Positions 10,653 through 63,095 of a DNA stretch of 64,000 nucleotides are shown here, one piece after another; position 1 is the stretch's first letter, and each line of letters begins with the position of its first letter. Below the pieces are notes generated by a model, which searched no databases, had not been told where the DNA came from, and was given only the letters and a program-made list of their open reading frames with translations. The DNA lies in the NCBI GenBank assembly GCA_027452065.1, contig DAIDHC010000010.1, positions 1 to 64,000 of the forward strand, given 5' to 3'. The position numbers and the translations under genes were made by a program. This DNA is from Bryobacterales bacterium. Its GTDB lineage: Bacteria > Acidobacteriota > Terriglobia > Bryobacterales > Bryobacteraceae.

Positions 10653-10657
10653 GAAAC

Positions 10658-10663: not shown

Positions 10664-10720
10664 CAGGTTTTGAAATCCGCTGCATCCGGATTTGTCTTCG
10701 CGAGCGCAGAATAAAAACGT

Positions 10721-10738: not shown

Positions 10739-10756
10739 CGCTGATAGTATGCTCCC

Positions 10757-11701: not shown

Positions 11702-11738
11702 GTCGCACCGGATCGAACCGCACCGGAGCTAACTGCAA

Positions 11739-13626: not shown

Positions 13627-13644
13627 TCGGGCTATGGAGACCAT

Positions 13645-14820: not shown

Positions 14821-14826
14821 GCCGGT

Positions 14827-16691: not shown

Positions 16692-16699
16692 GTCTGAGA

Positions 16700-18874: not shown

Positions 18875-19854
18875 GCGCTGCCCCGCGGAGGCGCTTCACG
18901 ATGGCGGCGCTTGCTCTGGTCAATCTTCTCTGGGCGGCGCAGTACCCGGCGTATAAGATCGCCAGCACTTCCATGAGCGCGGCGACGATGAACTTCTGGA
19001 CGCTCGCGTTCGGAATCTTGTTCCTGGCGCCGTTCCTTCGCCGCCGGCACAACGCCCCGCGCGCCAACCCCGCCGGACCGTGGCAAAGAAGCGCCGTGCA
19101 GTTCACCCTGCTCGGAGTCTTTGGCATCGTGCCGCCATCGGTGATGCTGGCATGGGGCATCGCGCGCTCCACCGCGTCCGATGCCGCGATCCTGTCGCTT
19201 ACCATTCCCGTACTGATGACCGCCCTGGGCATCGTAATGCTCGGTGAACGGATCACCACGCTGCGCGTGGCGAGTCTCGCGATGGCGCTGGCAGGAACGC
19301 TGATCATCTCCCGGTCCGATCTCAGCGGAGAGCTGTTTCACTCCCGTCTCCTTGCGGGTAACGTGGTGATCTTCATCGCGGGCCTCGGCAGCGCCTTCTA
19401 CAATGTTTATGCCAAAGTTCTTCTCGAGCGGTTCAGCGAAATTGAGGTGCTGGTAGGAAGCTATGCCGTCGCCGCCGTTTGCTGCCTGGTCACGTCATTG
19501 ATTGGCGATACCCAGCCCTTTTATCGCGTCAACGCGTTCCCTGTTGCCGCGTGGCTATCGGTGGCCGTACTGGGATCGCTCACCTGGGGCGTTGCCATGA
19601 TGCTTTGGATGTGGGTGCTCAAGCGAATCGAGGCCGGCCAGGCGTCGGTCTCCATCTACCTGTTGTCCTTCTTTGGCGTTTTACTGTCGGCGCTCACCCT
19701 GCACGAAAAGATCGGGCTGGCTCAGGTTGCCGGCGGCGTTCTCGTCATCCTCGCGACGTACCTTACATCCGAATATGAAAATCGCAGATCCTCCCGGCGA
19801 GACGCTGTCCTGGCGGAAGGACTGCTCAATCGTCGGGAGCCTACGCAACCGTGA
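18871..19854 (+). CDS. EamA/DMT family transporter
   Basis: Ten-helix hydrophobic pattern: LALVNLLWAAQYPAYKIAS, MMLGERITTLRVASLAMALAGTLIIS-like repeats. Confidence 0.88.
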   Translation: MSAAPRRRFTMAALALVNLLWAAQYPAYKIASTSMSAATMNFWTLAFGILFLAPFLRRRHNAPRANPAGPWQRSAVQFTLLGVFGIVPPSVMLAWGIARSTASDAAILSLTIPVLMTALGIVMLGERITTLRVASLAMALAGTLIISRSDLSGELFHSRLLAGNVVIFIAGLGSAFYNVYAKVLLERFSEIEVLVGSYAVAAVCCLVTSLIGDTQPFYRVNAFPVAAWLSVAVLGSLTWGVAMMLWMWVLKRIEAGQASVSIYLLSFFGVLLSALTLHEKIGLAQVAGGVLVILATYLTSEYENRRSSRRDAVLAEGLLNRREPTQP

Positions 19855-22693: not shown

Positions 22694-23711
22694 AAATATC
22701 CTTCCGCGACTTGTCCCGCACGAGAGGCTGTTTATTGCCTTGCGAGTCGGAAGCGCGGCTCATGACTACATACTCGCCCGGCCCAGCCGGCCAAACGTAG
22801 CTCCATCGGACCCAGTTGAACGGACCGGGCGTGGTTTCCAGACGGGCGGCGTTCCACGTGGCTCCGCCGTCGACGGAGACCGATACCCGATTGACGGCGC
22901 CTGAGCCGGTCCAGGCGAATCCCCAGACAAGGTGCCGGCCGGCGGGCAGGCTGGCTTTATCGCCAGGCCATGCAACGACCGACTTGACCTGGAGTGTGGA
23001 GAGGCGCGCGACGGCCCGATCGCCGCCCGTTTGCGTGACGCGGTTGTAGACCAGATTCATTCCACTCTCATAAAACGGAGAGTGCCGGTCGTCGGGTCCA
23101 AGGGCGGTAATCCTGCGCAGCCATTTCACTGAGTTCATGGCATACCATCCGGGCACCAGCGCGCGCGCCGGAAAGCCGTTGCGCCGGGGCAGGAACAGAT
23201 CGTTGAGTTTGAACGCCACCATACTGGACGAATCGAGACACTTCTGCAGTGGAACGATCTGGGCGTAAGGAAGCTGTGGCGAGCGCTGGAGCAGGCGCCC
23301 CGAATCATAGCCTTCGAGGGCCAGGAAGGCCGCATCGTGTCCGATACCCGCCTGCTCCAGCAGAAAGGAAACGGGAACACCCTCCCATATTCCATTGGCC
23401 GCAGCCGAGCCGTTGGCGGCATTTCCGGAGCATTCGAGCACCGCCTCGACGCGCTTGGTGGGAAGTTCCAGAAGATCGCTAAAACCGATCCGATACGGAT
23501 TTTGGACGTGCCCGTCGATGGTGAGCTGCCAGGATTCGAGCGAAAGCGCCGGCGGGGGGAAGTGGTCCCGGACGAAGAACAGGTCCGGCGGAGTGATCGA
23601 GTGGGAAATGCCGCGGAGCGGGTAGGAGACGTTCTGGGGTTCATCGGCCCAAAGCGCCGGGGCAAGGTAGGCACCGGCGCTCGAGAGCAGAAGTAGTTCG
23701 CGGCGCGTCAC
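22650..23711 (-). CDS. molybdopterin-dependent oxidoreductase, sulfite-oxidase fold
   Basis: PPDLFFVRDHFPPP, VEAVLECSGNAANG (putative Mo-ligand Cys), LVPGWYAMNSVKWLRRI. Tat-like leader MTRRELLLLSS. Confidence 0.88.
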   Translation of the reverse strand: MTRRELLLLSSAGAYLAPALWADEPQNVSYPLRGISHSITPPDLFFVRDHFPPPALSLESWQLTIDGHVQNPYRIGFSDLLELPTKRVEAVLECSGNAANGSAAANGIWEGVPVSFLLEQAGIGHDAAFLALEGYDSGRLLQRSPQLPYAQIVPLQKCLDSSSMVAFKLNDLFLPRRNGFPARALVPGWYAMNSVKWLRRITALGPDDRHSPFYESGMNLVYNRVTQTGGDRAVARLSTLQVKSVVAWPGDKASLPAGRHLVWGFAWTGSGAVNRVSVSVDGGATWNAARLETTPGPFNWVRWSYVWPAGPGEYVVMSRASDSQGNKQPLVRDKSRKDIYELNWCAPLSCTVR

Positions 23712-23712
23712 C

Positions 23713-26700
23713 CTAAAAGATTAGCTTGAGCGCCATCTGCGTGATGCGTGGGTCGCGCGCCGTAGTGATCTGGCCAAACGTGCCGTCGGTGACCGTCGTA
23801 TCGGGGTTGTTCAACAACGCGTGGTTGAAAAAGTTGAAGAACTCGGCGCGATACTGCAGGTGATACCGTTCGCCGAAGGTGAACTCTTTGTGGATGGAGA
23901 AATCCACGTTGAACGTCCCCGGTCCCATCAGGATGTTGCGTCCGGCATTGCCGAAGCTGTTGAGCTGGGGCGTGGTGAACGCGCTGGTGTTGAACCATTG
24001 ATTGATCTTATTGTTCAGCGAGCCCTGGGTATAGGACGGATTGCCGATCAACTGAGCCTGGTCGTTGGAGACCTCGGGCAGAGAGAAGGAGTAGTCGCCT
24101 CCGGATGTGATGTTGAGCGGGAAGCCGCTCTGCCAGGTCCAGATGCCGGACGTCTCCCAGCCTCCGAGGAGCGCTTTCGCAATGCCTTGTTTCGGTGACG
24201 GAAGCTGATAAAGATAGCTCAGCACGAAGTGTTGCGGAACGTTGAAGTCGGAGACGCTCCGGTAGGCGTTCAAATCGTAAGGGTTGATGATATTGATGCC
24301 GCAGAGGTCGGTTTGATAGGAGACCTGATCGATGCTCTTGCTCCAGGTGTAGTTGGCGCTGAGGTTCAGCCCGTGTGAGAAGCGCTTCTCAACGGAAACC
24401 TGCAGAGCGTTGTAGCTGGAGTTGGCGCCGGAGGTGTCCTGAGTGATCTGTTGATACTGCTGGTACGGCCGGCGGGCGTTTTCGTTGTCGGCTGTGGCAG
24501 TGGCGCTCGGCAGCGGAGCGTTGACGTCGGTGTTGTAGGCCAGGTGCCGGCCGACGGATCCGACGTAAGCGACGCGGAAGAGGATATCGTTGGAAAGCTG
24601 GCGCTCGACGGTGAAGTTCCAGTTCATCACTCGCGCCGGTGTCCAGTTGTGCTGGTAGGAGACGGCGAGGCTGAGCGGATTGTCGAACGCGACGCTCGAC
24701 GGGGGGATCTGCGGCGCATACGCTCCCGGGAAGGGATTGTTCTGCCCCTGATAAGGGTTCATGAAGGGAACTTTGAAGAAGCTGTATTGGGGACTGAACG
24801 GCGCGCTGTCCACCATGTTGTTGAACGCCTCGACAAACGGCGGCTGATCGAACAGGCCGACTCCGCCGCGAATGGTCGTTTTCGATGTGCCGCCCGGATT
24901 GTAGGCAAAGCCGAGCCGGGGGCTGAATTCCATCCAACTCGCGGTAAAGCCGCCGCTCGGGCAGCCGCGGTCGCCGGCAAAAAGATATCCGCCGGGCGCG
25001 TTCGGGAAACGCGTGGACTGAAGCCCGGGCAGGAAGCACTCGGTGCGGCCTTCCGAATCGGTGTAAGGAATGAACGGATCCCACCGGAGCCCGAGGTTCA
25101 GCACGAGATTGGGGTTGACGCGATAATCGTCCTGAAAAAACAGACCGGCCATGTTGCCGCTGCGGTTGGCGAACTCGCCGCCGCCTTGAATGAAATGGTT
25201 GACGTCGCCGATCAGGAAGTCGGCGAAGGGATTTCCGCTGTTGGCGGTGCCGCTGAAGTTGAAGCTGCCGTTCTGGCGATAGGTGTTGCTCAACTGGACG
25301 TTCATGCGGACGAAATCGCCCCCGATGGCGATCTGGTGGGCGCCGACGACCCAGTGGAGGCTGTCGCTGAAATTGATGTTGCGGCGGTCGAACTCTCCCG
25401 GATGACCGGAACTGATACTGAAGTAGCCGGCGACGGAAAGCGCCAACTCTGGCGGCGTCGTGCTGGCGATCGGAATCCCGAGGCTGGAGAAGCCAAAGGG
25501 CGCGCCGCTCACGACCGTCCCGTTGTTCTGGTTGTAGGAGAAGATCGCGCTATTCAGCATGTTCGGACTGATGTTGTACGTGTCGCTGAGAGAGGCGCCC
25601 TGGTCAAAGAGGGCGAGACCGCGGCCGGCGGTGATCAGGTCCGTCGTTCCCAGCGTCGGATCCTTTCCGTAGCGCGAGTAGAAATAGCGGCCGTAAATGC
25701 GCTGCTTGCTCAAGTTGTAGTCGACGCGCGTGAGGAACTGGTTGTCGTGCTCGTTGATCGGCAAATTGTAGTGGATCACCTGGCTGGGGCCGGTCGGGAT
25801 CGGAATGAGAGACAGGATCTTGCTGCTGGCCGGCGTGATCTGGTCCGAAGGGATGATGTTGCCGGGGTATGGGGCGCCGGTGTAGGGATTGACCAGTTGC
25901 GTGCTGAGGGCTGAAAAATCGCCGCCGCGTTCGGCGGCCGTCGGCACCGTGGTCGAATTGCCGCCCGAGATGTCGCGCGACTGGGTTCCCTGGTAGGTGC
26001 CGAAGAAGAATAGCTTGTCCTTCACGATCGGCCCCCCCACGCTTCCTCCAAACTGGTTCCGCTTGAGCTGATCCGGCTGGTCGGCAAAGAAGTTGCGCGC
26101 GTTCAGATCGCCATTGCGGAGAAAGTCGAAAGCGGTGCCATGAAACTGGTTCGTGCCGGACTTGGTGACAACGTTGACGATGGCCCCGGCTCCTCGTCCG
26201 TATTCGGCGCTGTAGCTGTTGGACTGGACGCTGAATTCTTCCACCGCGTCCGGATTCGGAAACGGATTGTTGGTGTTGGTGTAGGGGTCCTGGTTGCTGC
26301 CGCCGTCCATGTTGTAGTTGATCATGTCGGCGCGGGCGCCGTTGGTGGAGATGGACTGCGACCCCGGATAATTGACCGACTGAACCGTATCACCGGAACC
26401 GTTGGCATTACCGGCATTGAGATCGTTGGTGCCCGGCGTCAACAGGATCAGCGCGGCCGCATTGCGTCCGTTCAAGGGGAGCTTGATGATATTTCGCTGG
26501 CTGACCACCTCGCTCAACGCCCCGGACCGTGTCTCAACCATCTGGGCGTTCGCTTCCACCGTAACCGATTGCGTGGTGCTGCCGATCTGAAGCGTGAGAG
26601 GCACCGTGGAATTCTGGTCCGCCCGAACTTCGATTCCTCGCTGTTCCAGGCGCTCAAAACCCGGCGCCTCCACCGAGACGCTATAGAAACCGACCGGCAG

Positions 26701-26916
26701 AAGCGGGAAGACGTAGGTGCCGTCGTTCCGGCTCACGGTCTCGCGGGTGAGGCCGGTGGCCAGGGCGGTGGCAGTAACTCTGGCGTTGGCTACCGGAGCG
26801 CCGCTCGGATCGAGGATGGCGCCCGCGATGGTTCCCGTTGGATCCGCCGCGTGAAGGAGCGTACAGAGCGCGAAAAAGGTGACGATGCTTTTGAAATCGA
26901 TGCGTTTAAGACCCAT
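23713..26916 (-). CDS. TonB-dependent receptor, Oar-like, with carboxypeptidase-regulatory-like domain
   Basis: 1067 aa; TGTIAGAILDPSGAPVANARVTATALATG domain, KLPLNGRNAAALILLTPGT, C-terminal Phe (ALKLIF). Confidence 0.92.
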   Translation of the reverse strand: MGLKRIDFKSIVTFFALCTLLHAADPTGTIAGAILDPSGAPVANARVTATALATGLTRETVSRNDGTYVFPLLPVGFYSVSVEAPGFERLEQRGIEVRADQNSTVPLTLQIGSTTQSVTVEANAQMVETRSGALSEVVSQRNIIKLPLNGRNAAALILLTPGTNDLNAGNANGSGDTVQSVNYPGSQSISTNGARADMINYNMDGGSNQDPYTNTNNPFPNPDAVEEFSVQSNSYSAEYGRGAGAIVNVVTKSGTNQFHGTAFDFLRNGDLNARNFFADQPDQLKRNQFGGSVGGPIVKDKLFFFGTYQGTQSRDISGGNSTTVPTAAERGGDFSALSTQLVNPYTGAPYPGNIIPSDQITPASSKILSLIPIPTGPSQVIHYNLPINEHDNQFLTRVDYNLSKQRIYGRYFYSRYGKDPTLGTTDLITAGRGLALFDQGASLSDTYNISPNMLNSAIFSYNQNNGTVVSGAPFGFSSLGIPIASTTPPELALSVAGYFSISSGHPGEFDRRNINFSDSLHWVVGAHQIAIGGDFVRMNVQLSNTYRQNGSFNFSGTANSGNPFADFLIGDVNHFIQGGGEFANRSGNMAGLFFQDDYRVNPNLVLNLGLRWDPFIPYTDSEGRTECFLPGLQSTRFPNAPGGYLFAGDRGCPSGGFTASWMEFSPRLGFAYNPGGTSKTTIRGGVGLFDQPPFVEAFNNMVDSAPFSPQYSFFKVPFMNPYQGQNNPFPGAYAPQIPPSSVAFDNPLSLAVSYQHNWTPARVMNWNFTVERQLSNDILFRVAYVGSVGRHLAYNTDVNAPLPSATATADNENARRPYQQYQQITQDTSGANSSYNALQVSVEKRFSHGLNLSANYTWSKSIDQVSYQTDLCGINIINPYDLNAYRSVSDFNVPQHFVLSYLYQLPSPKQGIAKALLGGWETSGIWTWQSGFPLNITSGGDYSFSLPEVSNDQAQLIGNPSYTQGSLNNKINQWFNTSAFTTPQLNSFGNAGRNILMGPGTFNVDFSIHKEFTFGERYHLQYRAEFFNFFNHALLNNPDTTVTDGTFGQITTARDPRITQMALKLIF

Positions 26917-51343: not shown

Positions 51344-54250
51344 ATGCCGCACGGCTCCCGACGCGCTTTCTGCGCCCAGGTTGGACTCGGTCTCACGCTC
51401 TCGCGCCGCCTCGGCGCTGCGCCACCTCCAATAATTACGCTCGACTCCGTCCGTTCCGCCCCGCCGCGCCTTTCCGCCTCCAACGCCTCCGCGCTCAAGC
51501 TCACCCGCCCCTGGAACGGCAATCTCTGCCGCCCCACTCTCACCAACACCGGCACCACTCCGGTCCGCGTCCGCGAGGTGGTTCTCTTCTCCATCGAACA
51601 TGCCCTGCCTCCGGAGACCGGCCTCTACGGCGAGAGCTTCCAGATGCTGTCCCAAACGTCGGGCACGCTCGGCCGCCCGATTGATCTCGGCATGTCCGAG
51701 CGCCGCCACTACCGCATTCCCCAACCGGACGACGCCCTCGCGCTCACCGGCCTGCTCGCTCTTTCCCCTCCTTCCCATCCCGTCGCTGCCCTGGCCTTCA
51801 CCTCCTGCCGCCGTTTCGCCGGCCGCTTCTACCTCCGTCCCGGCTCCGTCGAGGTCGTCATCGACACCGAGAACCTGTCGATCAATCCCGGCGAAACCTG
51901 GCCTCTCGAAGAATTTTCCTTTTTCGACGGCCCATCCCTTTCCGCCCTCCTCGACCGTCTCGCCGCGCGCATCGTCGAAAATCATCCCACGAAGCTTTTT
52001 CCGTCCCCGCCCGCCGGCTGGTGCTCCTGGTATTGCTTCGGTCCCCGCGTCACCGCCCGCGAGGTGCGCGAAAATCTCGACGCCATCGCCGCCCACATGC
52101 CCTCCCTGCGTTACGTCCAACTCGATGACGGCTACCAGCGCGCCATGGGAGACTGGCTCGAAACCGGCGACGCTTTCGGCGGCGGCATCCTCAGCCTCCT
52201 TCAGGACATTCGCCGCCGCGGCTTCGAGCCCGCCATCTGGGTCGCACCCTTCATCGCCGAGGCCGGCTCCCATCTGTTCCAGAATCATCCCGACTGGTTT
52301 GTCCGCGACGACGCCGGCCGCCCGCTCTCCTCCGATCGTGTCAGCTTCGGCGGCTGGCGCCGCGGCCCCTGGTACAGCCTCGACGGCACCCACCCCGAAG
52401 CCCGCCTCCACATCGAGTCCGTCTTCCGCACGATGCGCCGCGACTGGGGCTGCACCTACTTCAAGCTCGACGCCAATTTCTGGGGAGCCATTCACGGCGG
52501 CCGCTTCCACGACCCCAACGCCACCCGTATCCAGGCCTACCGCCTCGGCATGGAGGCCGTCCGCCGCGGCGCCGGCGACGCCTTCCTGCTCGGCTGCAAC
52601 CACCCCATCTGGGCGTCCTTCGGCCTCATTGACGGCTCTCGCTCCTCCAACGACATCTCGCGAGAATGGCAGGCCATCCGCTCGGTCGCCCGCCAAGCCC
52701 TCGCCCGCAACTGGCAGAATGGCCGCCTCTGGTGGAACGATCCCGACGCCGTCGTTCTCACGGGCGCCCTCACCGGGGACGAAATTCGCTTCCACGCTAC
52801 CGCGGTCTACGCCTCCGGCGGCCTCATCCTCTCCGGTGACGACCTCTCCCAGCTCAGCGCCGGGCGCTTCGCCATGCTTGCCAAGCTCCTCCCGCCCGCT
52901 GCCCATGCCGCCGCCTTCGACGATCTCTCGCTCCGTTCTGGTTTCGTGGATCTCCCGGGAACCCGCATGGCTTGCCTGTTCAACTGGGATGATGCCCCCT
53001 CGCCGGCCACCATCCGCCTCGAACGTCCCGCCGAAATCTCCGACTTCTGGACCGGCCAGTCCCTCGGCCGCCACCAAGGCGAATTCAACGTCGGCGAGAT
53101 GCCGCCCCGCTCCGCGCGCCTCCTGGCCTGCCGCGCTCCCGCCCTCGCCTTCGATGTTGCCGCCTTCGATCGGCGCCGCGTTCTCGATGCCGCCGCCCGC
53201 TTTCTCGCCGACCCACCGGTCACCATCACCGCCGCCACCTCGTCGCGCAGCGCCGGCGGGCGCCACGATTTCTTCTCCGAGGGCGATTACTGGTGGCCCG
53301 ATCCCGCCGGCCCCCAGGCGCCCTATGTCCGCCGCGACGGTTTGTCCAATCCGGCTAATTTCAATAGCCATCGCGAATTCCTCATGCGTTTCAGCGTCCG
53401 TATGCCGGCCCTCGCCGCCGCCTGGAAACTCACTTCCGATCTCCGCTACGCCCGCCATGCCGCCGCCCATGCCCGTGCCTGGTTTCTCGCTCCCGAAACG
53501 CGCATGAATCCCAGCCTCGAATTTGCCCAGGCCATTCACGGCCGCGTCACCGGCCGCGGCACCGGCATCATCGACACTATTCACCTGGTCGAGGTTGTTC
53601 AGGCGCTCCGCGTCATCGAGCCCTCCGGCGCTCTCTCGCCGGAAGAAATGCGTGGCATCCGCATCTGGTTTACCGATTACCTCAACTGGCTGACAAGCTC
53701 TCCCCACGGCATCGAAGAACGCGAGGCGAAGAACAACCACGCCTCATGCTGGGTGATGCAGGCCGCCTGTTTCGCCCGCTTCACAGGTAATGACACCGTT
53801 ACCGGCTACTGCGCAGACCGCTTCCGCACCGTCCTTCTGCCCAACCAGATGGCCCCCGGCGGCAGCTTCCCGCTCGAGCTCCGCCGCACCAAACCCTATG
53901 GCTATTCGCTGTTCAACCTCGAAGCCCTGGCCGCCGTCTGCCGCATTCTTTCTATTCCGGGCGATTCGCTGTGGGAGTTTCAGTTGTACGACGGCCGCTC
54001 GCTCCGCCGCGGCGTCGAATACATGCTCCCCTTCATCTCCGACAAGCGCCGCTGGCCTCTGCAGCCCGATGTAATGTATTTCGACGACTGGCCCATGCGC
54101 CAGTCCAGCCTTCTGTTCGCCGCCGAAGCTTACGGCGACCGAAGCTATCTCGATGTCTGGAAGAAGCTGCCCGCCGATTCGAGCGTCAACGAGGTCACTC
54201 GCAATTTCTTCCTCCGTCAGCCCGTCCTCTGGGAAGGCGAATGGTCGTAG
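51344..54250 (+). CDS. GH36-like alpha-galactosidase fused to alginate-lyase-like (PF05426/PL38-type) domain
   Basis: One 968 aa frame. N-half: GWCSWYCFGPRVTAREVRENLDAIAAHMPSLRYVQLDDGYQ, CTYFKLDANFWG, DGSRSSNDISREW. C-half: GDYWWPDPAGPQAPYVRRDGLSNP, EAKNNHASCWVMQAACFARFTG, GGSFPLELRRTKPYGYSLFNLEAL. Confidence 0.82.
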   Translation: MPHGSRRAFCAQVGLGLTLSRRLGAAPPPIITLDSVRSAPPRLSASNASALKLTRPWNGNLCRPTLTNTGTTPVRVREVVLFSIEHALPPETGLYGESFQMLSQTSGTLGRPIDLGMSERRHYRIPQPDDALALTGLLALSPPSHPVAALAFTSCRRFAGRFYLRPGSVEVVIDTENLSINPGETWPLEEFSFFDGPSLSALLDRLAARIVENHPTKLFPSPPAGWCSWYCFGPRVTAREVRENLDAIAAHMPSLRYVQLDDGYQRAMGDWLETGDAFGGGILSLLQDIRRRGFEPAIWVAPFIAEAGSHLFQNHPDWFVRDDAGRPLSSDRVSFGGWRRGPWYSLDGTHPEARLHIESVFRTMRRDWGCTYFKLDANFWGAIHGGRFHDPNATRIQAYRLGMEAVRRGAGDAFLLGCNHPIWASFGLIDGSRSSNDISREWQAIRSVARQALARNWQNGRLWWNDPDAVVLTGALTGDEIRFHATAVYASGGLILSGDDLSQLSAGRFAMLAKLLPPAAHAAAFDDLSLRSGFVDLPGTRMACLFNWDDAPSPATIRLERPAEISDFWTGQSLGRHQGEFNVGEMPPRSARLLACRAPALAFDVAAFDRRRVLDAAARFLADPPVTITAATSSRSAGGRHDFFSEGDYWWPDPAGPQAPYVRRDGLSNPANFNSHREFLMRFSVRMPALAAAWKLTSDLRYARHAAAHARAWFLAPETRMNPSLEFAQAIHGRVTGRGTGIIDTIHLVEVVQALRVIEPSGALSPEEMRGIRIWFTDYLNWLTSSPHGIEEREAKNNHASCWVMQAACFARFTGNDTVTGYCADRFRTVLLPNQMAPGGSFPLELRRTKPYGYSLFNLEALAAVCRILSIPGDSLWEFQLYDGRSLRRGVEYMLPFISDKRRWPLQPDVMYFDDWPMRQSSLLFAAEAYGDRSYLDVWKKLPADSSVNEVTRNFFLRQPVLWEGEWS

Positions 54251-54278: not shown

Positions 54279-55091
54279 TCACACAAATTCCTCGTAGCGC
54301 TGCCGTACCCGGGCCGCAGTTTCCACCGGCGGCGCGTTCCAGATCGATTCGTTGAAAATCTCCACCTCGATCGCTCCGTCGTAGCCCGCCGCTTCCACTG
54401 CTTGGCGGATTCTCCGCAGCTCGATGCACCCGTCCCCCATCATGCCCCGGCCCATCAGTATGTCCGGCAGCGGTACGATCCAGTCCGACACATGGAACCC
54501 CACGATACGGCCCCGGGCCCGCTCGATCTCCGCGTAAAGCTCCGGATCCCACCAAACATGGTACGCGTCGATCACTACCCCGACCTCGTCGCCGAATTGC
54601 CGGGCAATGCCGTTCGCCTCACCCAGGGTCACAATCACGGATCGGTCTGCCGCAAACATCGGATGCAGCGGTTCGATTCCCAGCTTTACCCCCAGCCGCT
54701 TCGCCTCCGGCGCCAGCTCTGCAATTGCATCCTCCACCATTCGCCGCGCCCCGTCCAGATCCCGGTCCGGCGCCGCCCCGCATACCAACACCAATACTCC
54801 CGCGCCCAGCCCCGCCGCCTGCTCCAGCGCCACCAGGTTATCGGCAATCCGCTCCCGCCGTTCCTCCGCCGTCGCCGCCGGAAACAACCCGCCCCGGCAG
54901 AGGCTCGATACCCGCAGCCCCGCCTCGCGGATCAGCCGCGCGTCCCTCCGTACGTCGCCCGCCGCCAGCTTGTGCCGCCACGGTGCAATCCATCCGATGC
55001 CCGCGGCATTGCACGCCTCCACCGCCTGCTGGAGCGTCGCGTGCCCCGACGTGATCTGGTTAAAGCTCAGCTTCGCTAAGCCGGCCTCCAT
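54279..55091 (-). CDS. sugar phosphate isomerase/epimerase-like TIM barrel
   Basis: MEAGLAKLSFNQITSGHATLQQAVEACNAAGIGWIAPWRHKL..., LGIEPLHPMFAADRSVIV, VVIDAYHVWWDPEL, AIEVEIFNES. Start/stop overlap (TGATG) with upstream gene. Confidence 0.88.
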   Translation of the reverse strand: MEAGLAKLSFNQITSGHATLQQAVEACNAAGIGWIAPWRHKLAAGDVRRDARLIREAGLRVSSLCRGGLFPAATAEERRERIADNLVALEQAAGLGAGVLVLVCGAAPDRDLDGARRMVEDAIAELAPEAKRLGVKLGIEPLHPMFAADRSVIVTLGEANGIARQFGDEVGVVIDAYHVWWDPELYAEIERARGRIVGFHVSDWIVPLPDILMGRGMMGDGCIELRRIRQAVEAAGYDGAIEVEIFNESIWNAPPVETAARVRQRYEEFV

Positions 55092-56248
55092 CAATCGATG
55101 CCTCCCAGCGCCAGCACGTACTTCATCCGCTGCGCCGCCATCTCCGCATCCCGGATCAGCCCCGCGCCATCCGCCAGCACGAACAGGTCGGCCAGATGCG
55201 GCAGCGACCGCCATCCCTCCTGCGCCCCCAGCATCCGGAAATGTCTCTGGTGCCCGTTCAGGTATGCCAGAAACACCACGCCCGTCTTGTAAGCGTAAGT
55301 CGGCGCCTGGAAAATGTGCCGCGACAGTGGGATCGTCGGTTTCAACAATTCCCTGTATCGCTCGCTGTCGCCCCCATCGAGCGCCCGCAGCGCCGCCGCC
55401 GCCACCGGCGCGATCGCGTCGAAGATCCCCAGCAGCGCGTCGCTGTGCCCACGCTCGTCGCCCAGAATCAGCTCATCGTAATGAAAGTCGTCGCCGGTGT
55501 ACATCCTCACCCCGGCCGGCAGTCTCCGCCGCATCTCAATCTCCCGCCCCTTGTCGAGCAGCGAGATCTTGATCCCGTCCACCTTGGCTCTGTTCTCGGT
55601 GATGATCCCCAGACACACATCCATCGCCAGCGCCGGATCCCGGCTCCCCCAGTAGCCGCCCAGCAGCGGATCGAACATTTCTCCCAGCCAGTGCAGGATC
55701 GCCGGCCGCCGCAGTTCTCCCAGCACCGTCCCGTAAATCCGCGCGTAATCCTCCGGCCCCCGCGCGCACGCCGCCAGCGCCCGGCTCGCCATCACGATCG
55801 CCTGCGCCCCCAGCGAATCGGCGAATTCGCACTGTTCCCGGTACGCCGCCAGTACCTGCTCCAGGTTCGCTCCCGCCGGCGCTGCAAGCTGGTCCGTTCC
55901 CACGCCGTAGGCGATTCGCCCGCCTCCGCTCTCGGCCACCGACCGCCGCATCAGCTCCCGCGCCTGCTCATAGCTCAGCCCCCCGCCGCGCTGCGCCGTG
56001 TCCATCGCCTCGGCTATCGCAAATCCCTGCTTCCACAGGTACCGCCGGTAGGCCAGCGTCGCATCCCAGTCGATCGCCGCTCCGCACAACGGATCTCCCG
56101 CCGCCAATGGATCCACCACCACGTGCGCCGCTGCGAACGCAACCCGGCTGGTGAACGGCGCCGGAGCCGTCTCCCATCCCCGGTTCTCCCTCATCCGGTA
56201 CTCTTTCACCCGGCCTCCACCCACCGGCAGCGTCACCGAAATCGCCAC
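55091..56248 (-). CDS. dihydrodipicolinate-synthase-like / DUF993 family protein
   Basis: VAFAAAHVVVDPLAAGDP, SLGAQAIVMASRALA, KVDGIKISLLDKGREIEMRRRLPAGVRMYTGDDFHYDELILGD (Schiff-base Lys candidate in KISLLD). GTG start at 56248. Confidence 0.8.
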   Translation of the reverse strand: MAISVTLPVGGGRVKEYRMRENRGWETAPAPFTSRVAFAAAHVVVDPLAAGDPLCGAAIDWDATLAYRRYLWKQGFAIAEAMDTAQRGGGLSYEQARELMRRSVAESGGGRIAYGVGTDQLAAPAGANLEQVLAAYREQCEFADSLGAQAIVMASRALAACARGPEDYARIYGTVLGELRRPAILHWLGEMFDPLLGGYWGSRDPALAMDVCLGIITENRAKVDGIKISLLDKGREIEMRRRLPAGVRMYTGDDFHYDELILGDERGHSDALLGIFDAIAPVAAAALRALDGGDSERYRELLKPTIPLSRHIFQAPTYAYKTGVVFLAYLNGHQRHFRMLGAQEGWRSLPHLADLFVLADGAGLIRDAEMAAQRMKYVLALGGID

Positions 56249-56252
56249 GTCC

Positions 56253-57401
56253 TTATACCTCCGCCAGCCGCGGCACGTCCACCCATTGCCGCTTCTGCCA
56301 CGACTCGTAGGCCAGTTCAGCCAGTTGCACTCCCTTGGCCGCCTCCACGAATCCATGCGGAAACGCCGCATCCTCGGCCACGTGCCGCAGAAACATCTCC
56401 CACTGCGTCTTGAACGCGTTGTCAAACACCATGTTGTCCGGCACGTCTTCCCACCCGTCCCGGTACTTCAGCGCTGAGGGCACGTCCGGGTTCCACACCG
56501 GCTTGGGAGTGAAGCTCCGATGCTGCACTTTGCAATCGCGCAGGCCCGCCACCGCGCTCCCCTCCGTCCCGTCCACCTGGATCGTCAGCAGATCGTCCCG
56601 GTACACCCGGAAAGCCCACGATGCGTTCAGTTGCACCAACACGCCGCTGGCCAGTTCAAACATTCCGTATGAGCTGTCATCGGCCGTGCAGGGGTACTTC
56701 ACGCCCCGCTCGTCCACACGCTCTGGAATGTGGATCGCCCCGTGGCACAGCAGCGACTTCACACGTCCGAACAGCCCCTCCAGTACATACTGCCAGTGCG
56801 CGTACATGTCCAGAATCATCCCTCCGCCGGCCTCTTTGCGGTAGTTCCACGACGGCCGCTGTGCCGGCTGCCAGTCCCCCTCGAATACCCAGTATCCGAA
56901 CTCGCCCCGCACCGAAAGGATCCGCCCGAAGAATCCTCCCTCCACCAGCCGCTTCAGCTTCCGCATGCCCGGCAGAAACAGTTTGTCCTGCACAATGCCG
57001 TTCTTTCGTCCCCGTTCCCGCGCCAGCCGCGCCAGCTCCAGACACGCTTCGATGCTCGTCGCCAGCGGCTTCTCGCAGTAAACGTGCTTGCCGCTCTCGA
57101 GCGCCGACTTCACGTCCGGGAATCGCCGCGCCGTCGCCTGCGCGTCGAAATATACCGGATACTCCTCCGACGCCAGACACTCCTCCAGGCTCGTGCTCCA
57201 TCGCGCCACCCCGTGTTCGGCCGCCAGCCGCTTCAGCTTCTCCTCGCTCCGCCCCACAAGAATCAACTCCGGCATCACCCTCTCGCCGCCGCTCAGCTCC
57301 ACCCCGCCCTCGCGCCGGATCGCCAGCAGCGACCGCACCAGGTGCTGGTGCGTGCCCATCCTCCCCGTCACTCCGTTCACGATGATCCCGATGTTTTTCA
57401 T
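56253..57401 (-). CDS. Gfo/Idh/MocA family oxidoreductase (no export leader)
   Basis: MKNIGIIVNGVTGRMGTHQHLVRSLLAI, KHVYCEKPLATSIEACLE, GGGMILDMYAHWQYVLEGLFG. ATGA overlap with upstream gene. Confidence 0.92.
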   Translation of the reverse strand: MKNIGIIVNGVTGRMGTHQHLVRSLLAIRREGGVELSGGERVMPELILVGRSEEKLKRLAAEHGVARWSTSLEECLASEEYPVYFDAQATARRFPDVKSALESGKHVYCEKPLATSIEACLELARLARERGRKNGIVQDKLFLPGMRKLKRLVEGGFFGRILSVRGEFGYWVFEGDWQPAQRPSWNYRKEAGGGMILDMYAHWQYVLEGLFGRVKSLLCHGAIHIPERVDERGVKYPCTADDSSYGMFELASGVLVQLNASWAFRVYRDDLLTIQVDGTEGSAVAGLRDCKVQHRSFTPKPVWNPDVPSALKYRDGWEDVPDNMVFDNAFKTQWEMFLRHVAEDAAFPHGFVEAAKGVQLAELAYESWQKRQWVDVPRLAEV

Positions 57402-58564
57402 GTCCGGCCTCCCATCATAGCTTCCGCGAGCGCCCGCCCACCCGCCATCAAGGCATCGTTCGGATAGTGATGGTCCACGTTCTCCGGCGTGATTAACTGG
57501 TGCTTCACGAACACCGCCGGCGGCACCGGCCTTCGGTTCAACAAATCCATGGCCACGCGCACCAGGTCGCGCCCGTAGCGCTCCGGAAAATAACCTACCG
57601 ATCCGATCAGCCTCGTGCCCGGCTCCCTCAGCTCCATCCGCGCTTCCGGCGACGCGTTGTGCCCGACAATCGCGCAGTTCGCCGTTCGCCCCGTTTCCTG
57701 AAACGCCCGCAGGGCCCCCAGCGCGCTCGCGTCGTTGATCGCGCACACCAGGTACTGCCCCATCCGCCCGCCCCGCAGAAATTTCCTCACCGCCTCCAGG
57801 CTCGCTCCCAATTGCCCGTTCCCGTCCAGCCGCGTCACCGGCCGCTCGTCAATGTCCGGCAGCGCTTCCTTCATCCCCACCAGCATCCCCGTCAGCCGCA
57901 TCCTCGGCAAACTCCCCGCCCGCGGCAGCTCCAGGAACACCACCTCGTCCACCTTTCCCTGCCAGTGCTGCTTCGCCCATCGCCCCAGATGCCGCCCGCC
58001 CAGCAGCCCCGCTCCGTAATTATTCGCCCCGTAATATGTCGCCCCGGGATGCGGAATGTCGATCGCGATCAGCGGTATGTTCGCCTCCCGGTATTTGGCC
58101 GCGATGATCGGCGCCACGGTCTCATCCGTCTGGAACTCGATCACCAGGTCCACCTTCTCCCGGATCAGCAGATCGGCGTTCCGCTGCGCAATCCGCGCGT
58201 TGTAGCGGTTGTCCACCGTGATCACTTCAATCCCCTCGGCCCGTGCCGCCGCCAGCAGGCTCTCCGATACCCCGCGCGAAAAATCGTCGTCCGCCCCCTG
58301 CGCCGCATACCCCAGCCGGTGCCGCTTCTGCCTCACCGGCCTCACGCACGAGCGGTACTGGTTCTCCCCCACCTTCTCCACCATCCCGCACTTCTCCAGC
58401 GTGTACAGCAGCCGGAACGACATCCCCTTCGTCAATCCCGACCGCGCCGCCACGTCCCGCAGCCGCAGCGTCTCCCCCGCCGTTTGAAATGCCGCCAGCA
58501 ATTGCGACGCATGCACCAGGCTCTTCACCAGGTATGGATCCCGCGTTGCTCCCGAATTCCCCAT
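57398..58564 (-). CDS. chimeric regulator: IclR-type HTH fused to sugar-binding periplasmic-binding-protein domain
   Basis: N-term YLVKSLVHASQLLAAFQTAGETLRLRDVAARSGLTKGMSFRLLYTLEKCGMVEKVGENQYR (IclR wHTH); C-term VITVDNRYNARIAQRNADLLIREKVDLVIEFQTDE...IDIPHPGATYYGANNYGAGLLGGRHLG (PBP1-like). Confidence 0.83.
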   Translation of the reverse strand: MGNSGATRDPYLVKSLVHASQLLAAFQTAGETLRLRDVAARSGLTKGMSFRLLYTLEKCGMVEKVGENQYRSCVRPVRQKRHRLGYAAQGADDDFSRGVSESLLAAARAEGIEVITVDNRYNARIAQRNADLLIREKVDLVIEFQTDETVAPIIAAKYREANIPLIAIDIPHPGATYYGANNYGAGLLGGRHLGRWAKQHWQGKVDEVVFLELPRAGSLPRMRLTGMLVGMKEALPDIDERPVTRLDGNGQLGASLEAVRKFLRGGRMGQYLVCAINDASALGALRAFQETGRTANCAIVGHNASPEARMELREPGTRLIGSVGYFPERYGRDLVRVAMDLLNRRPVPPAVFVKHQLITPENVDHHYPNDALMAGGRALAEAMMGGRT

Positions 58565-58852
58565 ATCAGCTCCACGTGGTGCCGGACAATTTTCTTACGA
58601 TGCACAATACCACACCGCCGCCCCGAATCCGTTCCGCTTCTCGAAACAAGGCCCCCGCCGCCGCCCTCCCGGAGCCGGGCTCCCGCTCGCCGCAGCCCCC
58701 GCCAAACGGTCGCCACTCAGCCATCTGCGTCCCGCCCCGCCGCCAACGCCTCATTTCGCAGCCTGAAACGCCGTGCCCCCCGCGCGCCCGGCTTGAGCTA
58801 TGAGCTGCCCGCCGCTATGCTGGTGATCGGATTCCTGTTCGCCGGAGACAGC

Positions 58853-60043
58853 ATGCGCGCCTCTCAATTCGATTCCATCCTCGCCACGCTCGACCGCTTC
58901 CGCATCGAAATCCCCTCCTGGGGCTTCGCCAACACCGGAACCCGCTTTGGCAAATTTGTCCAGCCTGCCGCCGCTTCCACCATCGCCGAAAAGCTCGCCG
59001 ACGCCGGCTTCGTCCACTCACTCACCGGCTGCTGCCCCACCGTCGCCCTCCACGTCCAGTGGGATTTTCCCCGCGGCATCGAGAGCGCCCCCGAAGTCGC
59101 CGGCCTCGCCGCCGCCCACGGCATTGCCCCCGGCTCCATTAATCCCAATCTTTTTCAGGACCAGATTTACAAGTACGGCTCCTTCGGCAATCCCGACCCC
59201 TCCGTCCGCGCCGCCGCCGCCCAACACGTCGCCGAAAGCATCGATATCGCCTCCCGCCTCGGCAGCCGCGACATTTCCCTCTGGTTCGCCGACGGCTCCA
59301 ACTACCCCGGCACCGCGAACATCCGCCATCGCCGCCGCTGGTTTCAGGAAGGCCTCGCCGCAGCCCATCGCCTCCTCAGCCCCTCCCAGCGCCTCCTCGT
59401 CGAGTACAAACCCTTCGAGCCCGCCTTCTATCACACCGATATCGCCGACTGGGGCATGGCCTTCCTCCTTGCCCGCGAGGCCGGCCCGCAAGCCCGCGTC
59501 CTCGTCGACACCGGCCACCACTACGCAGCCCAGAATATCGAGCAAATCGTCGCCTGGCTCCTCGATCACGGCATGCTCGGCGGTTTCCATTTCAATGACC
59601 GCCGCTATGCCGACGACGATCTCACTCTCGGTTCCATCGATCCCTATCAGCTCTTCCGCGTCTTCCACGAAATTCTCCTCTTCGAGTGGGAGCGTGGCGA
59701 GCAGGCCGGAATCGCCTTCATGATCGACCAGAGCCACAACCTCAAGGGCAAAATCGAAGCCATGATCCAGAGCGTCGTCACCGCTCAGGAGCTCATCTGC
59801 AAAGCCGCCCTTGTCGATCACGCCGCCCTCTCCGCCTTCCAGCTCTCCTGCGACCTCGTTCCAGCCGAGTCCTGCCTCCAGGACGCCTTCTCCACCGACG
59901 TCCGCCCCGTCATCGCCGAATGGCGCCGCGTCCGCGGCCTCCCCGAAAATCCCCTCGACGCCTTCCGCCACAGTGGCTACCTCGAGCGCATCACCGCCGA
60001 ACGCTCCGCCCACAGCAACGCCGGCGTCTCCTCCTATGCCTGA
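58853..60043 (+). CDS. rhaI: L-rhamnose isomerase (RhaI type)
   Basis: LDRFRIEIPSWGFANTGTRFGKF, DISLWFADGSNYPG, EYKPFEPAFYHTDIADWG, VDTGHHYAAQNIEQIVAWLL, GGFHFNDRRYADDDLTLGSIDPYQLFRVFHEI. Long ORF-track N-extension rejected. Confidence 0.92.
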   Translation: MRASQFDSILATLDRFRIEIPSWGFANTGTRFGKFVQPAAASTIAEKLADAGFVHSLTGCCPTVALHVQWDFPRGIESAPEVAGLAAAHGIAPGSINPNLFQDQIYKYGSFGNPDPSVRAAAAQHVAESIDIASRLGSRDISLWFADGSNYPGTANIRHRRRWFQEGLAAAHRLLSPSQRLLVEYKPFEPAFYHTDIADWGMAFLLAREAGPQARVLVDTGHHYAAQNIEQIVAWLLDHGMLGGFHFNDRRYADDDLTLGSIDPYQLFRVFHEILLFEWERGEQAGIAFMIDQSHNLKGKIEAMIQSVVTAQELICKAALVDHAALSAFQLSCDLVPAESCLQDAFSTDVRPVIAEWRRVRGLPENPLDAFRHSGYLERITAERSAHSNAGVSSYA

Positions 60044-60063
60044 CCCGGCCCGCTGACCCGCTC

Positions 60064-60402
60064 ATGGAACGCGTCTGCTTCCTTCTCCGTCTCCGTCCCG
60101 AGCGTCTCGATGAGTACAAGCGCCGCCACCAGGCCGTCTGGCCCGAAATGCTCGACGCCCTCCGTCGCGCCGGCTGGTGCAACTACTCTCTCTTCCTTCA
60201 TCCCGACGGCCTCCTGATCGGTTACTTCGAAACGCCCGACCTCGCCCGCGCCCGCGCCGCCATGGACAGCGAGGACGTCAATGCCCGCTGGCAGCGCGAA
60301 ATGTCCCCCTTCTTCGTTCCGCTCTCCAGTCCTCCCGACCACGCTTTCCTTCGCCTCGAAGAAATCTTCCATCTCGACGGCGCCGCTCTCCCGTCTCCAT
60401 GA
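60064..60402 (+). CDS. rhaM: L-rhamnose mutarotase
   Basis: 112 aa MERVCFLLRLRPERLDEYKRRHQAVWPEMLDALRRAGWCNYSLFLHPDGLLIGYFET: RhaM/YiiL signature. Confidence 0.94.
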   Translation: MERVCFLLRLRPERLDEYKRRHQAVWPEMLDALRRAGWCNYSLFLHPDGLLIGYFETPDLARARAAMDSEDVNARWQREMSPFFVPLSSPPDHAFLRLEEIFHLDGAALPSP

Positions 60403-63095
60403 CCGTCCGCCTCGCCGCCGTCCCCCTCGCCCTCCTCGCCTCCCTTCTCGCGGCCCCTCCGCCCGCCCCGCCCGCCGCCGTTCCGCTGTCCTTCACTGAG
60501 CTCCACCGCGCCTTCGCCCACCCTCCCGGCTCCTCCCGCATCATGATGCGCTGGTGGTGGTTCGGTCCCGCCGTCACCCGTGACGAGCTCCATCGCGAGC
60601 TGTCCGCCATGAAATCCGGCGGCATCGGCGGCGTCGAGGTCCAGCCCGTCTATCCCCTCGACCTCGACGACCCGGCGCGCGGCTTCTCCAATCTCCCCTA
60701 TCTCTCTCCCGCCTTCCTCGACGTCCTCCGCTTTGCCTCTCAGGACGCTTCCGCCCTCGGCCTCCGCCTCGATCTCACGCTCGCCAGCGGCTGGCCCTAC
60801 GGCGGCCCCTCGGTCCCGGTCACCGAAGCCGCCGGCCGCCTGCGCCTCGAACAGGTGCCCGTCCCCTCCGGCGTCTCTTCGATTCCCGCTCCCGCGCTCT
60901 CCACCGGCGAGAAACTCCTCGCCGTCTTCCTCGATGACGGCCCCTCTCTGCCCGCCTCCGCCGTCGTCTCCGGCCGTCTCGCTGTCGCGCCCGACCCCGC
61001 GCGCTCCCGCCTCGCCCTTTTCTTCATCTCCAGCCGCACCGGCATGATGGTCAAGCGCGCCGCCGCCGGTGCCGAAGGCTTCGTCGTCGATCACTACGAT
61101 GCCGCCGCCGTCCGCCACTACCTCGCCGCCGTCGCCGGCACCCTCGCCCGATCGTTCGGCCCGCATCCCCCTTACGCTGTCTTTAGCGACAGCCTCGAGG
61201 TGATGGCCTCCGACTGGACGCCCGACCTGCTCGACCAGTTCCGCCGCCGCCGCGGCTACGATCTCACGCCCCTTCTGCCCGCCCTCGCCCTCGGCCGCGA
61301 TCCCCGTTCCGCCGCCGTTCGCCACGACTGGGGTCAGACGCTCACCGAGCTGGCCAACGAAAACTACCTCGTCCCTGTGGAGCATTGGGCCCGCGCCCAC
61401 GGCGTCCTGTTCCGCTCCCAGACCTACGGCGATCCTCCCGTCGCCCTTTCAAGCAACGCCCTCGTCGATCTGCCCGAAGGCGAAGGCTTCCGCTGGCGCG
61501 AGTTCTGCGAATCCCGCTGGGCCGCCTCCGCCGCCCACCTCTACGGCCGCCCCGTCGTCAGTTCGGAAACCTGGACCTGGCTCCACTCCCCGGCCTACCG
61601 CGCCACTCCTCTCGACATGAAGGCCGAGGCCGACCGCCACTTCCTCCAGGGCATCAACCAGCTCGTCGGCCACGGCTGGCCCTACTCTCCGCCCTCGGCC
61701 CCGGAGCCCGGTTGGGCCTTTTACGCCGCCGCCGCTTTCTCTTCCCACAACCCCTGGTGGTTCGTCATGCCCGACGTCGCCGCCTACCTCCAGCGCCTCA
61801 GCTTCCTCCTCCGCCAGGGCGCCCCGGTCATCGACGTCGCCCTCTTCCTGCCGACCGACGACGCCTGGGCCCGCTTCAGTCCCGGCCCCGTCTCTCTCAA
61901 CCGCTCCTTCGCCTCCTTGCTCGACCCTCATGTCATCCCCTCCATCCTCGACGCCGGCTACGGCCTCGATTTCATCGACAACGATGCGCTGCTCAACACC
62001 GCCGCCCGCTATCCGGTCCTCGTACTGCCCAACATCGAGCGCATCCCCGTCCCCGTCTACCGCCGCATCGAGTCCCTCGTGCGCTCCGGTGTTCACCTCG
62101 TCTTCACCCGCCGGGCTCCCTCGCTCGCCCCCGGTCTCCCGGACGCCGAATCCCAAACGGCCGAAATCCGCGCCATCTCCGGCCGCCTCCTCGCCAGCCC
62201 CAACGTCCGCCTCGTCCCGGAAGAAGGCGCCGCCCTCGCCGAGGCTCTTCATTCCTTCGTTCCTCCCGACCTCATCGTCCAGCCCGCCGCGCCCGCCCTC
62301 GGCTTCGTCCACCGCAAGCTCCCCTCCGCCGACATCTATTTCCTCGCCAACACCTCCAACCAACCCGCGAACATCCGCGCCTCCTTCCGCTCCGCCGGCC
62401 CGGCCGCGCAATGGTGGGACCCTTTCACCGGCGTCTCCACTCCCGCGGACCCCGCCGCTCCCATCACCCTCGCCCCCTACGAGTCCCGCGTCCTTGTCTT
62501 CTCCTCCGCCCTTCCTTCCGCGCAGCCCCCCACCTCTCCGCCCGGCCTCGCTTCGCTTGAGCTCGACCTCTCCACCGGCTGGCGCGCCACCTTCCCCGAT
62601 CTCCATCGCTCTCTCACCCTGTCCACCCTCCATTCCTGGACCGACGATGAAGCCCTACGCTATTTCTCCGGCCGCGCCATCTACGAGAAGTCCGTCACCG
62701 TCCCCGCGTCCTTCCTCCGCCCCGGCGCACCCGTCCGCCTCGACTTCGGCCCCGGCATCCCCGTTCCCGACCCCGGCGGCAACGCCCCCGGCATGCGCGC
62801 CCTGCTCGAAAGTCCGGTCCGCGAAGCCGCCCGCGTCTCCATCAATGGATCCCCCGCCGGCGCCGTCTGGCACTCGCCCTACTCGCTCGCCATCGCCCCC
62901 CTCCTCCGCCCCGGCTCCAACACCATCCAAATCGAAGTCGGCAATCTCGCCATCAACGCCCTCGCCGGCCGCGCCCTCCCCGACTACCGCCTCCTGAAGC
63001 GCCGCTACGGCGACCGCTTCTCCCCCCAAGGCCTCGCAAACATCGCCCCCCTCCCCTCCGGCCTCCTCGGCCCCGTGAGACTCGTCTCTCCCTGA
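60399..63095 (+). CDS. GH106-like alpha-L-rhamnosidase
   Basis: SRIMMRWWWFGPAVTRDELHRELSAMKSGGIGGVEVQPVYPL, GLRLDLTLASGWPYGGPSVP, LPDYRLLKRRYG; signal peptide; ATGA overlap with rhaM. Confidence 0.88.
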   Translation: MTVRLAAVPLALLASLLAAPPPAPPAAVPLSFTELHRAFAHPPGSSRIMMRWWWFGPAVTRDELHRELSAMKSGGIGGVEVQPVYPLDLDDPARGFSNLPYLSPAFLDVLRFASQDASALGLRLDLTLASGWPYGGPSVPVTEAAGRLRLEQVPVPSGVSSIPAPALSTGEKLLAVFLDDGPSLPASAVVSGRLAVAPDPARSRLALFFISSRTGMMVKRAAAGAEGFVVDHYDAAAVRHYLAAVAGTLARSFGPHPPYAVFSDSLEVMASDWTPDLLDQFRRRRGYDLTPLLPALALGRDPRSAAVRHDWGQTLTELANENYLVPVEHWARAHGVLFRSQTYGDPPVALSSNALVDLPEGEGFRWREFCESRWAASAAHLYGRPVVSSETWTWLHSPAYRATPLDMKAEADRHFLQGINQLVGHGWPYSPPSAPEPGWAFYAAAAFSSHNPWWFVMPDVAAYLQRLSFLLRQGAPVIDVALFLPTDDAWARFSPGPVSLNRSFASLLDPHVIPSILDAGYGLDFIDNDALLNTAARYPVLVLPNIERIPVPVYRRIESLVRSGVHLVFTRRAPSLAPGLPDAESQTAEIRAISGRLLASPNVRLVPEEGAALAEALHSFVPPDLIVQPAAPALGFVHRKLPSADIYFLANTSNQPANIRASFRSAGPAAQWWDPFTGVSTPADPAAPITLAPYESRVLVFSSALPSAQPPTSPPGLASLELDLSTGWRATFPDLHRSLTLSTLHSWTDDEALRYFSGRAIYEKSVTVPASFLRPGAPVRLDFGPGIPVPDPGGNAPGMRALLESPVREAARVSINGSPAGAVWHSPYSLAIAPLLRPGSNTIQIEVGNLAINALAGRALPDYRLLKRRYGDRFSPQGLANIAPLPSGLLGPVRLVSP

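Follow-up and report, generated by a model that had tools for sequence, protein, structure and literature searches.

How is L-rhamnulose broken down when a rhamnose locus encodes L-rhamnose isomerase (RhaI) without the kinase RhaB or the aldolase RhaD? This question is raised by a 64,000-nucleotide stretch of DNA (hereafter the window) from a Bryobacterales bacterium (GenBank assembly GCA_027452065.1, contig DAIDHC010000010.1, positions 1 to 64,000), which makes up nearly all of a 67-kb contig in a 5.3-Mb assembly of 240 contigs that is 90% complete (G000). Genes for a GH106 alpha-L-rhamnosidase, L-rhamnose mutarotase (RhaM) and RhaI run in one direction, and a coupled set of four genes for a regulator (REG), a Gfo/Idh/MocA oxidoreductase (GFO), a DUF993 protein and a xylose-isomerase-like TIM barrel (TIM) diverges from them, in the order TIM-DUF993-GFO-REG <> RhaI-RhaM-GH106. 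This anatomy, put forward in a preliminary description of the DNA, is confirmed by translation, by profile searches and by recurrence in the genus, and its statement that neither rhaB nor rhaD is found within the window also holds. The interpretation built on it, in which the minus-strand operon takes the place of RhaB and RhaD, is partly supported. The reading favored here, at a probability of about 0.43, is that the GFO-DUF993-TIM module supplies the cleavage step or steps that the genus has lost for a rhamnose-derived ketose. The features of the locus, with gene coordinates verified by translation and profile searches, are listed below.

54279–55091, minus strand: TIM, a xylose-isomerase-like TIM barrel (PF01261, 125 bits), predicted metal-dependent keto-sugar isomerase or epimerase
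55091–56248, minus strand: DUF993 protein, predicted class I (Schiff-base) aldolase with a DHDPS-like fold (PF06187, full-length match of 572 bits against a gathering score of 24)
56253–57401, minus strand: GFO, a Gfo/Idh/MocA oxidoreductase (PF01408/PF22725), overlapping REG by 4 bp
57398–58564, minus strand: REG, predicted L-rhamnose regulator with a PF09339 IclR helix-turn-helix (HTH) and a PF13407 Peripla_BP_4 sugar-binding domain
58565–58852, no strand: REG/RhaI divergent intergenic region with predicted REG operators, from an alignment of seven orthologous spacers
58630–58648, no strand: candidate second operator copy O2, CGTTCCGCTTCTCGAAACA, a conserved block in the seven-way alignment, weaker than O1
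58754–58768, no strand: predicted operator O1, TTTCGCAGCCTGAAA, a degenerate TTTYGCANTGCRAAA with 3 mismatches in the aligned column block
about 58853–60043, plus strand: RhaI, L-rhamnose isomerase (TIGR02635, 488 bits over 375 positions), with an alternative in-frame ATG at 58817
60064–60402, plus strand: RhaM, L-rhamnose mutarotase (PF05336, 103 bits; TIGR02625, 57 bits)
60399–63095, plus strand: GH106 alpha-L-rhamnosidase (PF17132, 256 bits)

The RhaI match is full length, its 488 bits standing against a curated cut-off of 531, and rhaI and rhaM are spaced 20 bp apart. On the minus strand, DUF993 overlaps TIM by 1 bp and is separated from GFO by 4 bp. Because these overlaps and gaps, including that between REG and GFO, amount to a few bases, REG-GFO-DUF993-TIM is likely to be a single, translationally coupled transcript.

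The regulator and its operator

The PF13407 part of REG groups with ribose-type and similar binding proteins in sequence searches. The positions of REG relatives were compared with those of RhaI, RhaD and RhaB across the 257 genomes of the window's order. Orthologues of 69–74% identity diverge from rha genes in five genomes, all without DUF993 (G430, G426, G563, G566 and G569). In G430 and G426, the arrangement is REG <> RhaI-RhaD-RhaM-RhaT, with RhaD between RhaI and RhaM and with RhaT confirmed by PF06379 and NF010024. REG is divergent to RhaB-RhaD in G563, to RhaB and a partial RhaD in G566, and to RhaI in G569. Three more relatives in the same identity range (G553, G603 and G431) do not adjoin rhaI, and relatives of about 60% identity occur near RhaI, RhaM and RhaT. 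In the REG tree, the four proteins from the window's genus make up a clade (95/90) that is sister to the set associated with canonical rha genes, within a clade supported at 100/100.

A single strongly conserved palindrome, TTTYGCANTGCRAAA, is shared by the seven aligned REG/RhaI spacers. It is exact in G528, G529, G530 and G569 and differs at one position in G430 and G426. Further copies of the site precede RhaD in G553, a GH106-like gene in G426 and several TonB receptors, and another lies between RhaB and REG in G563. O1 alone has no statistical significance within the window. Genome-wide counts of TTTYGCANTGCRAAA at one mismatch hardly rise above those of a reversed-pattern control; its use as a genome-wide regulon finder was rejected for this reason, and only sites placed near rha genes are used as evidence. 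Based on the rha linkage of its orthologues, its position in the tree and an operator shared near rha genes in several genomes, REG is strongly predicted to be a rhamnose regulator, which would bind the predicted operator. The placement of REG orthologues divergent to canonical rha operons and the shared intergenic palindrome also support membership of the predicted GFO-DUF993-TIM operon in the rhamnose regulon.

A published survey of rha regulators describes RhaR, RhaS and RhmR of the AraC, DeoR and LacI families and mentions neither the IclR family nor the Acidobacteria (PMC3870299). REG resembles these proteins in being a divergent gene predicted to control rha genes and, like the LacI types, in having a palindromic site; it differs from them by its IclR-type HTH. 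REG and its operator appear to represent a type of rhamnose regulator that is absent from that survey.

A window TonB receptor and the two next genes (21308–26916, minus strand) seem to recur, with the receptor at 74% identity, beside a REG orthologue and an exact operator in G553 (L245:8933-18001); a role in rhamnoside uptake is suggested for the window group. In addition, an operator-like site in the divergent spacer between a short-chain dehydrogenase/reductase (SDR) gene and a TonB-receptor gene is conserved in G528 and G530 (L283:4471-5682 and L284:4602-5781) and is a possible further member of the regulon.

Loss of RhaD and the proposed lower route

The window's genus, one of soil acidobacteria, comprises four genomes, G000 and the 92–94% complete G528, G529 and G530, all of which carry RhaI, a RhaB-like gene and DUF993. 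The divergent REG-GFO-DUF993-TIM/RhaI layout is present in the three other genomes, and GFO-DUF993-TIM directly follows REG with 4-bp overlaps in all four, the G529 locus being split over two contigs. This recurrence across the genus is far above chance. At a threshold of 1e-120, the RhaD model TIGR02632 matches none of the four genomes and 61 of the 257 in the order. In G000, the same model gave no match above its cut-off, only matches to dehydrogenase halves and to a weak class II aldolase, and in both G000 and L025, the rhaI and rhaM genes are contiguous, with no space for rhaD. The canonical aldolase, RhaD or RhaEW, thus appears to have been lost from the genus. Between G528 and G530, the ratio of nonsynonymous to synonymous substitution rates (dN/dS) is 0.07 for REG, 0.14 for GFO, 0.14 for DUF993, 0.37 for TIM and 0.06 for RhaI; given these low values, the module is maintained by purifying selection.

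Two class II aldolases remain in G000, on contigs C110 and C158, and neither matches a rhamnulose-1-phosphate aldolase model above cut-off. The C158 protein was rejected as a RhaD: its match is weak and partial, it lies beside a radical SAM gene, and it is absent from the other genus genomes searched. The C110 type is a 309-aa protein common to G000, G528 and G530 and found as a fragment in G529; its neighbors in G000 are a DeoR regulator and a sugar ABC transporter. This type was rejected as the rhamnose aldolase on the grounds that no operator lies nearby and that it is also present in RhaEW-bearing G426. No REG operator was found near the genus's remaining class II aldolases, so that among the proteins found in the rha locus, DUF993 alone is aldolase-like.

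To describe DUF993 as DHDPS-like, as was done in the preliminary description, is in agreement with its fold. The AlphaFold2 model (pLDDT of 93), in which eight barrel strands can be counted, has as its closest PDB structure 4DNH, the SMc04132 protein of Sinorhizobium meliloti (Foldseek, 1e-46), followed by DHDPS-family enzymes from 6e-10 at a probability of 1.00, of which 3NA8 (6e-10) has a TM-score of 0.82 by target. In DHDPS, the Schiff-base lysine is located on strand 6, a GDD motif follows strand 7, and the GTTGE motif after strand 2 holds the substrate carboxylate. DUF993 shares with the DHDPS/N-acetylneuraminate lyase superfamily the fold, a strand-6 lysine (K227, in strand 223–229, invariant in 44 relatives) and a G-D-D after strand 7 (G252-D253-D254); the equivalence of K227 to the DHDPS lysine is based on topology, not on superposed coordinates. 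It differs from this superfamily in its low identity (10–18%), its extra N- and C-terminal segments, the segment ILHW on strand 5 in place of the YNxP tyrosine, and the replacement of GTTGE (AMDTA). An invariant E-A-M-D-T follows strand 2 instead (44 sequences; segment AEAMDT), which argues against a pyruvate-type substrate. DUF993 may be a class I aldolase or lyase whose carbonyl substrate has no pyruvate-type carboxylate.

The AlphaFold2 model of TIM (pLDDT of 96.5) is closest in Foldseek to 7VPF, SMc04130 (3QC0/3JU2) and IolI. A metal site of the E-D-H-E type is predicted from E140, D175 and E244, which are invariant, and H200, which is conserved in at least 90% of 38 relatives. The best PDB match of GFO is 3OQB (E value of 1e-155), and both K111 of its EKP motif and D198xxxH202 are invariant in 34 relatives. 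From these residues, GFO, DUF993 and TIM all look catalytically competent.

In the proposed route, REG, of a type that serves canonical rhamnose operons in relatives, would control an L-rhamnose/rhamnoside regulon from which RhaD or RhaEW, encoded between rhaI and rhaM in relatives, has probably been lost and in which GFO-DUF993-TIM would be made from REG's own transcript. GH106 would cut rhamnosides, RhaM would anomerize the L-rhamnose, and RhaI would isomerize it to L-rhamnulose. The ketose that is cleaved could be free, could be the 1-phosphate made by the RhaB-like kinase encoded elsewhere, or could be a form oxidized by GFO and shuffled by TIM, and DUF993 would cleave it by way of a Schiff base on K227 to give two C3 units. 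We infer the action of the module on rhamnose-derived carbon, the order of its steps and its aldol chemistry from the locus and the models. With a kinase retained, DUF993 could equally well split rhamnulose-1-phosphate or belong to a route that is non-phosphorylated throughout; GFO and TIM, by their presence, favor the non-phosphorylated route or a partner sugar. The most specific version, in which DUF993 is a class I aldolase for a non-pyruvate ketose and the three enzymes form a lower route from L-rhamnulose (oxidation, isomerization and retro-aldol cleavage) that replaces RhaD, is rather unlikely.

The LRA pathway begins at the aldose and proceeds by way of a dehydrogenase, a lactonase, a dehydratase and a 2-keto-3-deoxy-L-rhamnonate (KDR) aldolase. 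Like this non-phosphorylated pathway, the proposed route would combine oxidation with aldol cleavage and need no kinase; unlike it, the proposed route would start from rhamnulose, and no LRA genes (rhamnose dehydrogenase, lactonase, rhamnonate dehydratase or aldolase) were found linked to the rha locus. With the canonical RhaI-RhaB-RhaD/RhaEW-RhaM-RhaT pathway (PMC3870299; G430 and G426), the locus has in common RhaI, RhaM, an orthologous regulator and its operator, with a RhaB-like kinase encoded elsewhere. It differs in the absence of RhaD/RhaEW from the genus, in the presence of GFO-DUF993-TIM behind the regulator, and in RhaT, which is not at the window's rha locus.

Evidence against the reading and rival explanations

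Several observations weigh against a role for the module in rhamnose cleavage. The RhaB-like kinase is encoded away from the locus in all four genus genomes and leaves room for a phosphorylated route with another aldolase. In G000, it is located on contig C74, matches TIGR02627 end to end (433 bits against a cut-off of 528) and is of the type that serves as the sole RhaB in the canonical relatives G430 and G426. Support for the replacement of both RhaB and RhaD by the minus operon, as first proposed, is divided: the rhamnose-regulon wiring, the absence of RhaD and RhaEW from four assemblies and the aldolase fold of DUF993 are in its favor, whereas replacement of the kinase is doubtful or unlikely because a RhaB-like gene is present. 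This gene adjoins one for a zinc alcohol dehydrogenase (L020:4663-7106), and the two are coupled, away from rha loci, in several genomes (C74/L020, L256, L257, L259 and L260). Furthermore, G528, G529 and G530 are mutually close, so that the four genus genomes amount to two lineages, and the window's own operator (58754–58768) is degenerate. An hhalign comparison of DUF993 with one E. coli DapA sequence, a full-length match to 1DHP, gave a probability of 0.2 in what is a weak test with a single-sequence template; this attempt at sequence-profile proof of DUF993-DHDPS homology was negative, and the fold comparison was used instead. No report of aldol activity was found for any DUF993 protein. 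The literature searched contained nothing on the function of DUF993, PF06187, SMc04130-04135, 4DNH, 3OQB or the 7VPF isomerase and no mention of DUF993 by name or accession, of 4DNH or of 3OQB; SMc04132 and SMc04133 are listed there in a PhaR expression table and nowhere else.

Across the order, 78 of 129 rhaI-bearing genomes lack RhaD, and DUF993 is present in 6 of these 78 and absent from 72. DUF993 and RhaI are unassociated (Fisher p = 0.29), and four DUF993 genomes also have RhaD. A general substitution of RhaD by DUF993 was rejected on these counts. Because some rhaD-negative genomes (G624, G613 and G601) have a two-domain class II aldolase, the loss of RhaD has been answered differently in different genomes, and DUF993 could be one such answer, in the window's genus only. 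In G624, which lacks RhaEW, this aldolase (L253:13328-14620, 430 aa) is encoded with RhaM, divergent from a REG relative of about 60% identity, and is a candidate for a new rhamnulose-1-phosphate aldolase.

The cassette is found well beyond rhamnose loci. A scan of 85,462 genomes for DUF993 returned at least 587 relatives, of which the best 80 were taken with flanks of up to 10 kb. GFO, DUF993 and TIM lie side by side in that order in 57 of the 70 well-called loci; the ten omitted are those in which DUF993 was missed or broken by the gene caller (e.g., L061, L063, L065, L083, L090, L095 and L096). The cassette occurs in Bacillota, Chloroflexota, Alpha-, Beta- and Gammaproteobacteria, Actinomycetota and Acidobacteriota. 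The preliminary description counted a usual position away from rha genes against its own interpretation, and the cassette shows just that: in 78 of the 80 best loci it is away from rha genes, and rha genes similar to those of the window are present only in L025 and L030, contigs of G528 and G530 from the window's own genus. The cassette is therefore an independent unit that is not usually partnered with rhamnose. Its neighboring transporters are of the TRAP, tripartite tricarboxylate (TTT) or ABC type, and its regulators vary (AraC-, TetR- and LacI-like, by sequence reading and plasmid annotation). Aldehyde dehydrogenase, (D-)2-hydroxyacid dehydrogenase and glycerate kinase recur beside it. 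Annotated plasmids show the same context and a second one in which DUF993, often with TIM, stands with an acyl-CoA dehydrogenase, an SDR and an electron transfer flavoprotein (ETF) in place of GFO.

S. meliloti also carries the cassette (SMc04130, TIM; SMc04132, DUF993; SMc04133, putative oxidoreductase). These proteins belong to the same families as those of the window, whose DUF993 is 58% identical to 4DNH and whose TIM is 47% identical to 3QC0 in structural alignments. In contrast to the window, the S. meliloti cassettes inspected have no link to rhamnose; their neighbors are either TetR, an ABC transporter and more Gfo genes or acyl-CoA dehydrogenase and ETF. In S. meliloti, the mutations of rhamnose-negative Tn5 mutants were located in canonical rha operons, which include rhaD (PMC9025865). 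This result and the frequent absence of RhaD without DUF993 in the order weaken the non-canonical lower pathway of the preliminary description.

The explanation that best survives beside the favored one is that the module belongs to the rhamnoside regulon and acts on a co-released partner (e.g., a sugar, sugar acid or cyclitol out of a polymer or glycoside that contains rhamnose), while rhamnose passes through RhaI, the RhaB-like kinase and an unrecognized aldolase. The TRAP, TTT or CUT-type ABC transporters, the aldehyde and D-2-hydroxyacid dehydrogenases and the glycerate kinase found near the cassette elsewhere suggest a substrate of its own, in line with the kinase kept in all four genus genomes and the abundance of further glycoside hydrolases in the window. 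This explanation is quite possible, but it leaves unexplained why RhaD has been lost from the very genus that carries the module behind a rhamnose regulator, and the operon encodes neither a second transporter nor a hydrolase dedicated to another substrate. It is improbable that the canonical phosphorylated route is instead completed by another class II aldolase, such as the C110 type, with the cassette being a passenger or having at most a loose connection to rhamnose. Although each genus genome has some class II aldolase and the two-domain type accompanies RhaM in rhaD-negative G624, the latter was not found in the genus, and the C110 type scores above cut-off for no rhamnulose-1-phosphate aldolase model, lacks a REG operator in its vicinity and is also present in G426, which has RhaEW; the retained coupling and low dN/dS of the module oppose its being a passenger. 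Concealment of rhaD by the incomplete assemblies, with an ordinary pathway beside an unrelated cassette, is very improbable given four separate assemblies without the gene, the contiguity of rhaI and rhaM, and the report that RhaEW is always located in rha loci (PMC3870299).

Neighboring clusters and the wider DUF993 family

Just past the end of the minus operon, a 968-aa protein (51344–54250, plus strand) has GH36/melibiase-like (PF02065) and PF05426 alginate-lyase-like parts. Further away, at 9576–19854, a LacI-type regulator is divergent to an SMP-30 lactonase, a GH88 protein, an SDR, an enolase-superfamily dehydratase, a DUF4432 epimerase, a second SDR, a GH36-like glycosidase and an EamA transporter, which looks like a separate oxidative sugar pathway. 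Its lactonase/SDR/enolase portion (10.7–16.7 kb) was rejected as an LRA rhamnose pathway on the basis of its own LacI gene and of a dehydratase score of 141 bits against the L-rhamnonate dehydratase cut-off of 393; the closest solved relatives are unassigned racemase/dehydratase proteins.

Plasmid-borne DUF993 relatives (L215, L217, L218 and L220) are found with acyl-CoA dehydrogenase, SDR and ETF in Sinorhizobium and Rhizobium, with the first two but no ETF in Janthinobacterium, and in a polyketide cluster in Streptomyces, which suggests that the family may have several roles. A divergent branch that scores about 270 bits is present in one Acidobacteriota genus (L112-L125 and L141); L141 is 38% identical, and the one locus inspected has no adjoining GFO or TIM.

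For the reading in which GFO-DUF993-TIM supplies the lost cleavage of a rhamnose-derived ketose, the link to a predicted rhamnose regulator combined with loss of the canonical aldolase provides a first concrete substrate hypothesis for DUF993. This protein occurs at no fewer than 587 genome loci across several phyla, mostly in a conserved trio with an oxidoreductase and an isomerase, and crystal structures exist for all three types (4DNH, 3JU2/3QC0 and 3OQB). If the more specific lower route from L-rhamnulose were true, it would be a third route of rhamnose degradation and would give a first function to a large, unstudied family.

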